Shown piece after piece: positions 16,401 to 23,933 of a stretch of 64,000 bases of DNA. The notes under the pieces are model-generated. The model did not search any database. It saw only the letters and a program-made list of their open reading frames with translations, and was not told the DNA's origin. The position numbers and the translations under genes were made by a program. Origin of the DNA: Bacteroidaceae bacterium (GTDB taxonomy: Bacteria; Bacteroidota; Bacteroidia; Bacteroidales; Barnesiellaceae_A); contig JAFXJY010000019.1 of NCBI GenBank assembly GCA_017531985.1, forward strand, positions 65,009-129,008, written 5' to 3'. The first letter of the stretch is position 1. Every line of letters begins with the position of its first letter.

Positions 16401-18278
16401 ATGGAAACAGACTACGAAGCTCTGATTTATGTCACGGTACATGAATTATTCACCAATCTCGAAAAACGTTTTGATCACGAGAGCATGGAACGTATCCGTG
16501 CCGGATTTGCCTTTGCAAAGGAAGCACACAAAACACAAAAACGCAACAGTGGCGAACCCTACATTTTTCACCCCATTGCAGTTGCACGCATCATCGGTGA
16601 GGAACTCATGTTGGGAGCCGATACCATTATTGCAGCATTCTTACATGACGTAGTAGAAGACACCGATTACACCGCTGAGCATATTGAAGCCAGCTTCGGA
16701 CCCGATGTCAAAACACTTGTCATGGCTGTCACCAAAGACAAGACCAATAATGGAAACAACGACACCGTACAGGTGGGCAACTACAAACGCATCCTCGACT
16801 CTATTAATGACGACATACGAGCGTTGTTGATAAAATTGGCCGACCGCCTGCACAACATGCGTACCCTCAACAGCATGAAGCCGGTGAAACAGATGAAGAT
16901 AGCAGGTGAAACCGACTACTTCTACGCACCGATAGCCAATCGTCTGGGATTATATCACATCAAGACCGAGCTGGAAAATCTATCGTTCCAGTATCGCTGC
17001 CCTCGCGAATACGAGTTGATGGTAAAGATGATCAACGAAGAAAGCGAGCGTATCCGCACATCGCTCGAAAAGTTTGTTGACAAGGTAAACTCCACACTCC
17101 TATCATCCGGCATAGAGGCTCGCTGCGAAATCATACATCGCAAACCTTACAGCATATGGCGAAAGATGCAATCGAAGTGCTGCGACTTCTATCATGTCAA
17201 TGGCAAACACTACATCCGCATTATCTACCCCGATAGTCATGTAGGCAGCGACAAGGACGAAGCCTTGCGTATCTACTCATCGCTCACCGATGTCTTCAAC
17301 GAACAACCCGGCAGTGTAGCCAACTACATCAGCTCGCCCAAAGAGAACGGATACCGTAGTTTTCATGTAAACCTATTAAATGACGAAGGTCGCTGGGAAG
17401 AGGTACACATCTCATCGGAGCAGATGGTGAAGAACTCTCATCGTGGCTGTACAGCCGACCGCAGCGACAGCAATATAGAGGCTTGGATCGAGAAGTTCCG
17501 CTCTGTACTGAACGAAATCAAGGCTCACACCCATGAGATAGAGTACATGGATGGTGTCACCACATCGTTCTACAACGACGATATCAAGGTGTACATGCCG
17601 GGCGGTGGCAACGTAATATTGCCCAAGAATGCAACAGCACTCGATCTGGCCTTTCACTTGGGTCACAACGAAGGCTTACACGCACACTATGCACGCATCA
17701 ACGGTCGTCTCACATCGATAAAGACAGTACTACGTCGCGGTGATATTGTCTCAATAGGCACCAACAGCAAGGTTAAACCACAAAAGGACTGGTTGAATCA
17801 TGTATTGACATTCAATGCCAAGATTATGCTGACCGACTATTTCAAAAACGAAAAGAAGCCTCAGTTCAATCGTTGTCCCCTCTGCCATCCCATCCCCGGT
17901 GATGAGGTAATAGGCTACAAAGAGAATGATGGCACAAAAACAGTCCACAAACGCAATTGTCCCATAGCCATCCGCTTGTCGGCTCACTACGGCGACAACA
18001 TTTGCGAAGAGACCTACGAAGCCGATAAAGACTTTTTGTACCCGGTACGCATCAGAATGAGAGGAATAGATCGCTACCACTTGCTCAGCGACCTTATCAA
18101 GTGCATCACCGACGACTTGCAATTGTCGATGCGTGAACTTGCCACCGAAACCATCGACCATATTGCATCGTGTACCATCGACTTCGACATCCACTCCATG
18201 TCGGAACTGGATCGTGCCATGGAAAGCATTCGCTCCATAGAGGGAGTAGATGAAGTTTCGCGTATCGATATTGAGTAA
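16401..18278 (+). CDS. RelA/SpoT homologue with intact hydrolase but degenerate synthetase domain
   Basis: 625 residues. Long-RSH protein of (p)ppGpp metabolism. The HD hydrolase domain keeps its metal and catalytic set: His57 in FHPIAVA, His82-Asp83 in LHDVVEDTDY, Asp148 in ADRLHNMRTL. The synthetase region is recognisable (KPYSIWRKM, SPKENGYRSFH) but damaged. The Asp of the DLxAxRI motif is Gly268, EVQIR has become EVHIS (336 His, 338 Ser), and the AAHWxYK block is gone. TGS (about 390-450), Cys-rich CPLCHPIPGDEV and C-terminal ACT domains are kept. I infer a hydrolase-only enzyme that works beside the canonical Rel at 46925. The next gene starts 31 bp downstream. Confidence 0.85.
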   Translation: METDYEALIYVTVHELFTNLEKRFDHESMERIRAGFAFAKEAHKTQKRNSGEPYIFHPIAVARIIGEELMLGADTIIAAFLHDVVEDTDYTAEHIEASFGPDVKTLVMAVTKDKTNNGNNDTVQVGNYKRILDSINDDIRALLIKLADRLHNMRTLNSMKPVKQMKIAGETDYFYAPIANRLGLYHIKTELENLSFQYRCPREYELMVKMINEESERIRTSLEKFVDKVNSTLLSSGIEARCEIIHRKPYSIWRKMQSKCCDFYHVNGKHYIRIIYPDSHVGSDKDEALRIYSSLTDVFNEQPGSVANYISSPKENGYRSFHVNLLNDEGRWEEVHISSEQMVKNSHRGCTADRSDSNIEAWIEKFRSVLNEIKAHTHEIEYMDGVTTSFYNDDIKVYMPGGGNVILPKNATALDLAFHLGHNEGLHAHYARINGRLTSIKTVLRRGDIVSIGTNSKVKPQKDWLNHVLTFNAKIMLTDYFKNEKKPQFNRCPLCHPIPGDEVIGYKENDGTKTVHKRNCPIAIRLSAHYGDNICEETYEADKDFLYPVRIRMRGIDRYHLLSDLIKCITDDLQLSMRELATETIDHIASCTIDFDIHSMSELDRAMESIRSIEGVDEVSRIDIE

Positions 18279-18309: not shown

Positions 18310-18705
18310 ATGATTATTCACACCCTCGAAGAGATTCATACACTATTCGAATCGACTAAATATGCAGACAATAGTTTAGTACGCGTTGACCAAACCGATT
18401 TTGACACGTGTATGGGTAGTGGCAGTAAGCAGTGTGCCGTAAGCATCACCGGCAACCACAACCATGAAGCCTTTGTTAAAGAAACCCAACAAGAAATAAA
18501 CGAGTGTGCCAAACTCTCGCTTAAAAGTTGTATCATAATTTTTATAGCACACAATCCTGAGGCTGCATCCAATTTCATGACCATAGAACTTGTCAACGAA
18601 GTGACAGCCAATCTCCACAACTGTGACACGATCATGGGTATTACAAGCGATGCAACCTTGCAACAGGATGAATGCAGGATATTGTTTTTTGGGGCATACG
18701 ACTGA
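18310..18705 (+). CDS. Free-standing FtsZ C-terminal-domain-like protein
   Basis: 131 residues, no signal or membrane span. By eye the whole protein aligns with the second half of FtsZ. VDQTDF (26-31) sits where FtsZ has its T7 loop VDFADV, keeping the D-x-x-D spacing that completes the GTPase site of the neighbouring subunit. SCIIIFIA (73-80) matches the GVLVNI strand, NFMTIELVNEVTANL (88-102) the next helix, and IMGITSDATLQQDECRILFFGA the closing I-x-G-xxxD-xx-L-xxExRVTVIATG. The GTP-binding N-terminal domain is missing. It could bind or cap FtsZ, or supply a T7 loop in trans. It is 31 bp behind the RSH gene and before a strong terminator, so the two are probably one operon. The fold call is inference from pattern. 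Confidence 0.6.
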   Translation: MIIHTLEEIHTLFESTKYADNSLVRVDQTDFDTCMGSGSKQCAVSITGNHNHEAFVKETQQEINECAKLSLKSCIIIFIAHNPEAASNFMTIELVNEVTANLHNCDTIMGITSDATLQQDECRILFFGAYD

Positions 18706-18727: not shown

Positions 18728-18765
18728 ACAATGAAGAGTGAGCAATCACTCTTCATTGTTTTTTA
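18728..18765 (+). terminator. Terminator after FtsZ-tail-like gene
   Basis: 14-bp perfect stem (18728-18741 with 18746-18759), GCAA tetraloop, then a T-run. It closes the RSH / FtsZ-like unit. Confidence 0.9.
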
Positions 18766-18870: not shown

Positions 18871-21108
18871 ATGGAAAGTTTTTATTTACTCTGTGTAGGC
18901 ATCTTGTTTATCATTGCCACTTTTGATGTAATGGTAGGCGTAAGCAACGATGCCGTCAATTTTCTTCAATCGGCAATAGGCTCCAAAGCCGCCAAGTTTC
19001 GCACACTGCTCATCATAGCAGCCATCGGTATATTCATCGGAGCCTCCATGTCCAATGGAATGATGGACATCGCCCGACACGGCATCTATCAGCCACAGTA
19101 TTTCTATTTCAACGAAATAATGGTCATCCTACTGGCTGTCATGCTCACCGATGTAATACTACTCGATGTATTTAATTCACTGGGACTACCCACGTCAACT
19201 ACGGTCTCAATGGTGTTTGAGTTGTTGGGCGGTACATTTGCATTGGCAATGATTAAGGTATTAGGCTCGGATGGAGGTTATACGATGGGCGAACTGATAA
19301 ACACCGACAAAGCATTATCGGTCATAGTAGCCATCTTTGTGTCAGTAGCCTTAGCCTTCGTTTGCGGTGCAATAGTGCAGTACTTGGCTCGCATGCTATT
19401 TAAGTATAACTATGAGAAACAATTGAAACGTTGGGGAGCCTTGTTTGGCGGATTTGCCCTTACGACTATCGTTTATTTCATCCTGTTTAAGGGTCTGAAA
19501 GACTCATCGTTAATGACAGCCGAGAACAAGCGATTAATACAAGACAACACCTTACTTATACTGGGATGTTGCATGGGAGGTTTTACAGTTGTGATGTTTG
19601 TCTTACAGTTGCTCAAAGTCAATGTGTTGAAAATTGTGGTGATGGCAGGAACCTTTGCACTGGCTTTGGCATTTGCCGGAAATGACTTGGTAAACTTCAT
19701 CGGAGTACCTTTGGCAGGACTTTCATCGTATGTCGATTACACCAACAATGCCAACGGAGCAGCACCCGATGCCTTCTTAATGACATCATTAACCGAGTCG
19801 GCAAGCACCAATCCACTCTTCCTTATCGGAGCCGGACTTGTAATGGTGATTGTACTATTTACTTCAAAGAAAGCCCATCGCGTAGTACAGACCTCCATAG
19901 CCCTATCGCGACAAAGTGCCGGAGAAGAGGGATTCGGCACATCACCCGTAGCTCGCCAATTGGTACGCATCTCACTCAATATAAACAACGGAGTATCCAA
20001 GATTACACCACAACCTGTAAAGGAGTGGATAGAGAAAAGATTTGACAGCAGCGATGCCATCCTTCCCGACGGAGCAGCCTACGACCTTGTAAGAGCATCT
20101 ATTAATCTTGTTGTGGCCAGTCTGCTCATCGCATTGGGTACATCACTGAAACTACCATTATCGACCACCTATGTAACCTTTATGGTGGCGATGGGTACAT
20201 CGTTGGCCGACCGTGCATGGGGTAGAGAGAGTGCTGTATTCCGCATCACAGGTGTCATATCGGTTATAGGCGGATGGTTTATTACTGCCGGAGTTGCATT
20301 CATAGCCAGCTTTATCGTAGCACTTATCCTTCACTACGGTGGTATGATAGCTACCATCCTACTCACTATTGCTGTGATCGTAATTATTATACGCAGTCAG
20401 TTGTCATTCAGCAAGAAGCAAAAAGAAGACAGCCAATCGACCGAGCAACTGTTGCTTACCAATAAAGACCCCGAGCAGACACTGCCTCTTCTGCAACAAC
20501 ACACTCGCGAGCAGTATAGCGAGTTTGTAGGATGGTGTGCCCATGTGTACGAAAGAGCTGCGGAAGGATTCCTCAACGACAGTGCAAGCATCATGCGTAA
20601 GGCTAACAACAAAGTCAAAAACGAACGCCAAAAATTACGTATTACCCACCGGGTCAGCACTGTTGCACTTTCGCAACTGAAAGAACAAGACTGGATAGAA
20701 CGAGGCTTGTATCTGCAACAAGGCAATGAGATAGTTATGGATATATTCCACTCGATGAAACGCATGGTAGAACCTGCCTTCGAGCATATCGATAACAACT
20801 TTGAGCCTATTGACGAAAAGCAACTTACCGAATACAATGGCACCGGAACAGATATTATCAGATACCTCCATCGTTGTCAAGAGGCTATTGCCAATAAAAC
20901 AATCGATACCGGTGAATTATCGAAAGAGAGTAACGATCTGATACGTCGCATATCGCAGATAAAGCGTAATGAGATGCAACACATCCGTGCCACCTCGGCA
21001 TCGAAGAAGGTCGACCTTGTATATCTTACATTCTTACAAGAATCTCAAAACATTGTGGCTTACACCATTAACCTTATAAAGATAAACAATAAGTTCCAGA
21101 CGGAATAA
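18871..21108 (+). CDS. PiT family inorganic phosphate transporter with PhoU-like tail
   Basis: 745 residues. Inner-membrane cation-coupled phosphate permease. The duplicated PiT signature appears as VGVSNDAVNFLQSA (about 22-35) and FAGNDLVNFIG (about 269-279), with a third related segment SLKLPLSTTYVTFMVAMG near 426. Around ten membrane spans end near 515. The remaining ~230 residues are charged and helical, and resemble a PhoU-type domain fused to the transporter. This fused form is longer than the ~500-residue E. coli PitA. Monocistronic, with a terminator of its own. Confidence 0.9.
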   Translation: MESFYLLCVGILFIIATFDVMVGVSNDAVNFLQSAIGSKAAKFRTLLIIAAIGIFIGASMSNGMMDIARHGIYQPQYFYFNEIMVILLAVMLTDVILLDVFNSLGLPTSTTVSMVFELLGGTFALAMIKVLGSDGGYTMGELINTDKALSVIVAIFVSVALAFVCGAIVQYLARMLFKYNYEKQLKRWGALFGGFALTTIVYFILFKGLKDSSLMTAENKRLIQDNTLLILGCCMGGFTVVMFVLQLLKVNVLKIVVMAGTFALALAFAGNDLVNFIGVPLAGLSSYVDYTNNANGAAPDAFLMTSLTESASTNPLFLIGAGLVMVIVLFTSKKAHRVVQTSIALSRQSAGEEGFGTSPVARQLVRISLNINNGVSKITPQPVKEWIEKRFDSSDAILPDGAAYDLVRASINLVVASLLIALGTSLKLPLSTTYVTFMVAMGTSLADRAWGRESAVFRITGVISVIGGWFITAGVAFIASFIVALILHYGGMIATILLTIAVIVIIIRSQLSFSKKQKEDSQSTEQLLLTNKDPEQTLPLLQQHTREQYSEFVGWCAHVYERAAEGFLNDSASIMRKANNKVKNERQKLRITHRVSTVALSQLKEQDWIERGLYLQQGNEIVMDIFHSMKRMVEPAFEHIDNNFEPIDEKQLTEYNGTGTDIIRYLHRCQEAIANKTIDTGELSKESNDLIRRISQIKRNEMQHIRATSASKKVDLVYLTFLQESQNIVAYTINLIKINNKFQTE

Positions 21109-21236: not shown

Positions 21237-23933
21237 ATGCAAGAAAAATCATGTATAAAAAAGCACAAAGCTTGCTCCATTATACTCACACTCATACAAT
21301 TGCTATTGCCCTGCTCCGTCATTGCACAAAACACGTCGGCAGCACAATCAATTGTCAATGACCTATCAGACCCGCACACTACCGACAACGGATTACAGGG
21401 GAAACATATAGCTTTGTGGGGCGGGCATGGATATTATTACGACCAGAAAGATGGCAAATGGGAATGGCAACGTCCGCGATTGATGGGGACAGTCGAAGAC
21501 CTAAACACAGCCGACTTCACAATCAACTATCTGCTACCAATGCTCGAAAATGCAGGAGCAACAGTCTTTATGCCTCGCGAACGCGACATAAACAGCCACG
21601 AGTATATCGTAGACAATGATACACCGCTATCGACATACGAGGAATGGGGCAAGTGGCAAGATGGCTCACAAAAGGGATTTGCTCACAAACACACAACGTA
21701 CAGCGACTGCGTCAACCCCTTTGAAGAGGGAACATACAGATGGACTAAGAGTACATCAGGAAAAGCTACGGCTGGGATAACATGGAACATTCCCATCGAG
21801 GAGAATGGTCGATATGCAGTCTATGTTTCTTACAAGATGGTCAACAAGGGTGCGACGGATGCACGCTACATCGTACATCATGCAGGCGGGACAAGCGAAT
21901 ACTCGGTGAACCAGACTATGGGAGGTGGCACATGGGTGTATATAGGTAGTTTCGACATGGAGCGAGGTGGCGACAATCGAGTAGTTCTGAACAACACATC
22001 GAGCATAGCCGGAGAATATATTACCGCCGATGCCATCAAAGTGGGTGGCGGCATGGGAAATGTGGCACGCAAGCCATGCCACAAACCACGCAAGGCCACA
22101 AGATATGCTACAAAAGCCAAGCTATCGAGAGAGAAAAAACCTCGTATCAAAGAGTCGAGAGTAAGCGGTATGCCCCGATATGCCGAAGCAGCACGTTACT
22201 GGTTGCAGTGGGCAGGCATCCCCGATGACATCTATTCCGATACGGGTGGTAACGATGATTACCGAGAGGACTTGCGAGTGCGACCTTATTGGGTCGACTA
22301 CTTGTGCGGTGGCTCGAAAGTTCTCCCCAAAGAAGAGGGATTGAATATCCCCGTTGACATGGCTCTGGCCATACACAGTAATGCCGGTCGCAACATGGAA
22401 GGCTCGTTGGGTATTGTTTACACCGGTAACAATAAATACAACAAACTTAATTACTACAACAGTCGTAAACGGAAAAGTGTAACCAAGTTGCACAATCAAG
22501 TTATTAACAGCATTGAGAACGATATCAAAAACAATCTTGTCGAGGAGTGGAAAATTCACGAGATGAAAAACGGCAAATATGCCGAGACAAAATTCTTGGA
22601 AGTGCCAACCTTACTGCTCGAATTCATGTCGCATCAAGATTTCAACGATATGCGTTGGGGGCTTGACCCACGTTTCCGATTACTGATGAGCCGGGCTATC
22701 TATAAGGGAGTTCTCCGCTATTTAACGGGCAATAATTGTATTGTACAACCTCTACCCGTCGACCACATGGCTCTACAATGGAAAGGTACCAATGAAGTAT
22801 TACTATCATGGAAGGCTGTGACCGATTCTCTTGAAAAGAGTGCCACACCCACCGGCTACAAGGTGTATGTGCGTAAAGGAGAATATGGCTGGGACAACGG
22901 AACAATAGTGCATGATACACAACATTCAATAAGTATTGAGGACGATGTCATATATTCGTTCTACGTTACCGGCATCAATGCAGGAGGTGAAAGTCTGCCA
23001 TCGGAGATACTCACAGCCCACCGTTCAAGTATCATACGTCGGAGTGTAATGATAGTCAATGCCTTCGACCGTATCAGTGCACCCGAGATTATCGACGATC
23101 CATCGAGCAATAAGAAGGGATTTCGCTACGATCTTGACTTCGGAGTACCCTATCGGTACACGCTTGCCTACACAGGCGAACAATATAACCTCGACTACAT
23201 ATCCATAGCCGATGATGACCCTGATGAACCCCAATTCGGGGCGAGTCACAGCGACTACGAAGGCACAGTCGTGGCAGGTAACACGTTCGATTATCCATAT
23301 CAGCATGGCGAATGCCTGGCACGATTAGGTTATTCGTTTCTTTCAATCTCGGATGAAGCACTCTCGTCAACGACAATCCATCCCAATGATTTTCCCTATG
23401 TCGATGTGATAATGGGCAAAGAACGACAAGTATTCTTTGGCAACGATTCATCACGCAACGATTACGAGCCACTCACCGAGGAGTTGACATCGACACTGAC
23501 AGCCTATTGTCGAGCAGGTGGCAACATGCTTATCAGTGGAGCCTACATTGGCTATGACAGCTACGACGGCAGGTCGGTATCGACTCATGCACAAGACTTT
23601 ATAACCGACATACTACATTGTGAGTGGTCGTCGGCTCGCAATGCTCATGGCAATGCCATGGTGCGAAGTATCGCCGACGAATATGACACAACGCTGATGA
23701 AATGGAACAGTCGCCCCAATCCGCATTGTTATTCGGTGGAGCAGAGTGATATATTTCTACCCATCGATGATAATGCTGTAACGTTCCTACAATACAACGA
23801 TGGCAGCAGTGCCGCAGTTGCATGCGATGTTGGGTTATATCGTTGTTGTACATTAGGATTTCCCATTGAAGCGATTACCAACAAAGATCATCGATTGAAA
23901 CTAATGAGACTTGTATTTGATTTTCTACAATAA
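21237..23933 (+). CDS. Secreted N-acetylmuramoyl-L-alanine amidase-like protein with golvesin-type domain
   Basis: 898 residues, N-terminal signal peptide ending near VIAQ. This group is often labelled 'xanthan lyase', but the catalytic part looks like a zinc amidase (Amidase_3) that cuts the bond between muramic acid and the peptide. Zinc-type residues are seen in WGGHGYYYD, in the Glu-containing RERD region, in ALAIHSNAG and in LLEFMSHQ. A golvesin C-terminal-like beta-sandwich (about 175-275) is inserted in the amidase fold. A fibronectin-III-like module follows (about 500-600), then a 300-residue C-terminal domain of unknown role. It heads a run of genes for murein salvage, which supports peptidoglycan as substrate. 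Confidence 0.8.

Follow-up and report, generated by a model that had tools for sequence, protein, structure and literature searches.

A probable lineage-specific orphan gene behind an RSH gene in a Bacteroidales genome, and its slight resemblance to the second half of FtsZ

The 64,000-nucleotide stretch of Bacteroidales DNA analysed here (the window) contains a gene for a RelA/SpoT homologue (RSH) followed, on the same strand, by a short open reading frame, a strong intrinsic terminator and a phosphate transporter gene. The features on which the analysis turns are these:

16401..18278, plus strand: gene for the RSH enzyme (HD_4, RelA_SpoT, TGS and ACT_4 domains, with Pfam matches well above cut-off), upstream of the orphan
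18310..18705, plus strand: orphan open reading frame of 131 amino acids, with an ATG start and coding-like codons; no homologue found
18385..18402, plus strand: VDQTDF, a T7-loop-like segment (residues 26–31, with D27 and D30) aligning with NCDFNDV of the FtsZ from the same genome
18622..18690, plus strand: CDTIMGITSDATLQQDECRILFF (residues 105–127), the part best matching PDTITGVYIDESL-NDEVRVTIL of that FtsZ
18728..18759, plus strand: intrinsic terminator with a 14-bp stem and a T tract (−20.7 kcal/mol, z −8.8)
18871..21108, plus strand: gene for a PHO4/Pit-type phosphate transporter, the next gene after the orphan

The 131-residue frame lies at 18310–18705 just as a sequence-only reading of this DNA had placed it, and its product contains both segments to which that reading drew attention, VDQTDF and IMG..SD..L..DECRI, with IMGITSDATLQQDECRI near the C-terminal end. 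Its ATG follows the RSH stop codon after 31 bp, and the terminator stem begins 22 bp past its own stop, so that RSH and the orphan probably form one co-transcribed operon, with the terminator closing the RSH–orphan transcription unit. The sense codon score of the frame stands at the 17th percentile among long genes of its own genome, a level attained by 0.1% of non-coding frames. The sense frame outscores its mirror frame by 25.7 bits, a small margin for a gene (the 1st percentile of own-genome genes by this measure), and the antisense mirror frame itself scores fairly high. The encoded protein has about three times the usual content of cysteine, twice the usual content of histidine and few arginines. 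With some reserve, 18310–18705 is probably a real protein gene.

The arrangement differs from that of related genomes. In congeners G003 and G008 the RSH gene directly adjoins the PHO4/Pit gene, with 106–108 bp and no ORF between them, while the remaining congeners examined carry different genes behind RSH. In the window the RSH–Pit interval measures 592 bp, of which only the last ~80 bp, the region upstream of Pit, are conserved. The orphan occurs nowhere else in the genome of any congener, and no diverged copy was found behind the RSH orthologues of the congeners or of three more distant genomes. The RSH–Pit insert therefore appears specific to the source species, as far as the compared genomes show, those of the genus being ruminant-gut MAGs. 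Contamination is unlikely for the window contig and for the separate contig carrying FtsZ, as both show the usual level of identity to congeners elsewhere along their length. Downstream of the phosphate transporter, positions 21237–23933 encode an 898-residue protein with a Golvesin_C domain, 57–58% identical to its counterparts in G008 and G003. The RSH of the genus retains the hydrolase motif HDVVEDT; in place of IYDLxAxR, which we take to be the canonical synthetase motif, all congeners carry xHVxGKxYIR, with the conserved aspartate apparently lost, and to judge by these motifs the enzyme may be hydrolase-only throughout the genus.

Searches for relatives of the orphan protein were uniformly negative. 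It matched no Pfam or PADLOC family even at E 10, gave chance-level matches only against NCBIfam and PHROG (E 0.12–0.2) and against PDB sequences (E 1), and no relative was found among GTDB contigs, IMG/VR, phages or plasmids, nor in 99 relative, 395 phylum and 393 order genomes (partly overlapping sets). Weak matches at E 0.005–0.02 per genome over ~850 Bacteroidota genomes are consistent with chance. The gene thus has the marks of a lineage-restricted orphan: it is free of homologues outside the species, missing from the corresponding site in congeners, and carries a coding signal. Structure prediction by AF2, run without an alignment, reached a pLDDT of 52.6 and 53.3 in two runs, a quality too low to decide for or against FtsZ, and searches with these pLDDT-53 models (Foldseek/VIA) gave low-scoring, mixed matches with no FtsZ among the matches listed, a result that excludes nothing. 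The predicted elements comprise a helix (6–15), strand (24–26), helix (28–35) and strand (41–46) in the N-terminal part; a helix (52–68), strand (73–80) and two helices (83–89 and 92–99) in the middle; and two strands (105–109 and 122–128) at the C-terminal end. A shorter run on residues 18–131 kept the later elements and lost the two early strands. The product would be a small soluble alpha/beta protein by predicted fold class, the fold itself not being fixable from one sequence.

According to the sequence-only reading, this product is a protein like the second domain of FtsZ, standing on its own. In the form in which this alternative deserves weighing, the protein would be a stand-alone homologue of that domain which arose from an FtsZ long ago and whose T7-like loop (D27, D30) would bind the nucleotide face of FtsZ and so cap filaments or alter GTP hydrolysis, the lineage's own FtsZ, FtsA and FtsW having changed alongside. 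We consider it possible but doubtful. That the GTP-binding domain is missing is plain enough, since the frame starts at residue 1 without it and the gene upstream is RSH. The profile search that the same reading had proposed as a check did not confirm it, for Pfam FtsZ_C (PF12327, gathering cut-off 27 bits) did not match the protein at E 10, while a whole-genome Pfam scan finds the true FtsZ of the source genome at 58.7 bits. Of the T7-loop acids said to be kept, both aspartates are present, but the conserved asparagine of NxDxxD is replaced by arginine (RVDQTD), and the GE.R and PLL motifs of FtsZ are missing as well.

The claimed full-length alignment holds up in part. FtsZ of the same genome, which is encoded on another contig and thus lay outside the sequence behind that claim, aligns collinearly with orphan residues 24–129 (106 of 131) at 28–30% identity, yet the likeness is weak and goes unseen by Pfam. 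The Smith–Waterman score of this pair is 50 (z 5.2). Shuffling the orphan yields at least this score in 2 of 2000 cases, and shuffling the FtsZ domain does so in 3 of 2000; no other protein fragment from the source and related genomes, out of 1569, attains it against the orphan, own-genome FtsZ being the best of 1570. Among 20000 random native pairs, 38 reach the score and 4 reach score and span together. Under the same alignment the AF2 order H-E-H-E-H-E-HH-E-E falls in register with the structural elements of the FtsZ C-terminal domain (at pLDDT 53), the known elements of FtsZ having been used for the comparison. When a genus profile built from nine FtsZs is run against the orphan together with 3000 shuffles and 1608 native fragments, the orphan comes first on its best domain and second on the full score, where one shuffle exceeds it. 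The hhalign alignment extends over 93–98 columns, a length that none of 250 native controls attains, but its score is exceeded by 3 of 250 controls with the genus profile and by 11 of 250 with own-genome FtsZ.

Outside the genus the resemblance fades. A broad FtsZ profile (order plus genus) gives the orphan 5.0 bits, a score that 24 of 3000 shuffles attain, as does one native fragment out of 1608, and general FtsZ profiles yield p ~0.01 only. Pairwise scores against the FtsZs of other species, E. coli and B. subtilis among them, are at or near chance; the above-background score comes only from own-genome FtsZ and the genus-specific profile. The p values, from ~0.0002 to 0.01, overstate the case for FtsZ, because the orphan was chosen for its FtsZ likeness and several comparisons, including several profile variants, were tried. 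Nor can a derivation be traced at the codon level: orphan and own-genome ftsZ share 11 codons where 11.4 are expected, and without an excess of shared codons a recent copy of own ftsZ was rejected as the source of the orphan. On these comparisons the orphan appears to resemble the second half of own-genome FtsZ slightly above chance, which is too little to call it an FtsZ relative.

The remaining argument for a relationship with FtsZ comes from the division proteins themselves, which have diverged unusually in the source lineage only. FtsZ of this lineage is 60–67% identical to that of its congeners, which are 79–93% identical to one another, although it still falls inside the genus clade. The branch leading to the source species takes up 44% of the gene tree for FtsZ, 31% for FtsA, 26% for FtsW and 23% for FtsI, compared with 10–20% for MurC, MurG, MraY, MurE and Pit, several of which are interleaved with the fts genes; the fts and mur names are presumed from the order of the genes, FtsZ alone being identified by Pfam. 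Two further high shares in the region, 38% (contig 14:28159) and 27% (14:27032), come from six-row trees without G007. The divergent fts genes lie on contig 14:11775–25576 of the source genome (G000), outside the window. Transfer of a single block is an unlikely origin for them, as mur genes of normal divergence are interspersed among them. Within FtsZ the substitutions are densest in the C-terminal domain: of the congener-invariant columns, 28 of 55 are altered in residues 251–325 and 4 of 54 in residues 76–150. The source-species branch accounts for 48% of the RSH gene tree and for 10% of the tree of the adjacent transporter. Of the ~17 genes examined the two most diverged are RSH, the neighbour of the orphan, and FtsZ, its look-alike. 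With ~17 genes covered and no causal link shown, this is a suggestive coincidence.

A fuller proposition strikes us as unlikely: in one Bacteroidales lineage, FtsZ would be regulated by a stand-alone homologue of its C-terminal domain that offers the T7 acids in trans and is transcribed together with a (p)ppGpp enzyme, an arrangement that would link the stringent response to division and would have driven the coordinated divergence of FtsZ, FtsA, FtsW and RSH. Least probable of all, and in our estimate quite improbable, is that 18310–18705 is no functional protein gene but a frame left open by chance within a non-coding RSH/transporter insert, for although homologues were found nowhere searched, so that selection cannot be tested, and the mirror frame scores fairly high and the codon score is low for a gene, the frame stays open for 131 codons from an ATG placed immediately behind RSH, is followed at once by a terminator, and has a sense codon score rare among non-coding frames and clearly above that of its mirror.

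The explanation that we favour, by a modest degree of belief, is an orphan that is confined to this lineage and belongs to the RSH transcription unit, its fold not fixed, most likely acting with RSH. The gene would have been gained between the RSH and phosphate transporter genes in one lineage, where it would form the last gene of the RSH transcription unit before the strong terminator. Its product may modulate or partner the adjacent RSH enzyme, a role that we infer solely from the probable co-transcription of the two genes and from how unusually far RSH has diverged. The likeness to FtsZ would then reflect chance together with a common order of beta-alpha-beta elements, and it is against this account that the similarity to own-genome FtsZ exceeds what is expected of an unrelated protein. 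A functional link to RSH is suggested only by adjacency in the DNA; conserved-neighbourhood support for it is absent because the RSH–orphan pair occurs in no other genome.

Comparison with known systems delimits what a relationship to FtsZ would entail. The orphan shares with the C-terminal (GTPase-activating) domain of FtsZ, PF12327, the order of predicted elements and the D-x-x-D of the T7 loop, a comparable distance between the T7 loop and the C-terminus (106 residues), and, in common with own-genome FtsZ, a D-T-I-x-G...D..L..DE.R segment. It departs from FtsZ in the features already named (GTPase domain, Pfam score, arginine for the asparagine of NxDxxD, GE.R and PLL), and from PF12327 also in lacking ~9 residues where the second helix leads into the next strand and in being rich in cysteine and histidine. 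If a free-standing FtsZ C-terminal domain were real it would, to our knowledge, be the first natural protein of its kind, a limited literature search having found no described stand-alone example, and would represent half a subunit supplied to control a cytoskeletal polymer; if the gene is only an orphan, it is ordinary. Because the division proteins and the neighbouring RSH have diverged in this lineage specifically, the FtsZ idea can be tested within one genus.

The two domains of FtsZ fold independently (PMC7327170), and small proteins that block or cap its assembly are known. MciZ caps the minus (T7-loop) end of the filament and CbtA binds the plus end; the binding sites on FtsZ lie close to the T7-loop region for SulA and MciZ and at the H6/H7 loop for the 124-residue CbtA (PMC5624674). 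Their likeness to the orphan is one of functional analogy only, for these small FtsZ binders are not copies of an FtsZ domain, unlike the protein proposed here, and a T7-loop mimic would be expected on the opposite, nucleotide-bearing face of FtsZ from that bound by SulA and MciZ. The reverse of the proposed case is found within the FtsZ–tubulin superfamily, where FtsZl1 (Tubulin_2, PF13809) retains the domain that binds the nucleotide but lacks a recognisable C-terminal domain of the FtsZ type (PMC2875224). One such Tubulin_2 (FtsZl1-like) member is present in the source genome (G000, contig 10:about 55150–57000), immediately after a gene whose product looks, by eye, like a von Willebrand-type (vWA) protein. 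In Bacteroidales genomes G023, G029, G038, G076, G079, G092, G113, G142 and G151, which belong to several families, two or three FtsZ genes sit near one another on a single contig.
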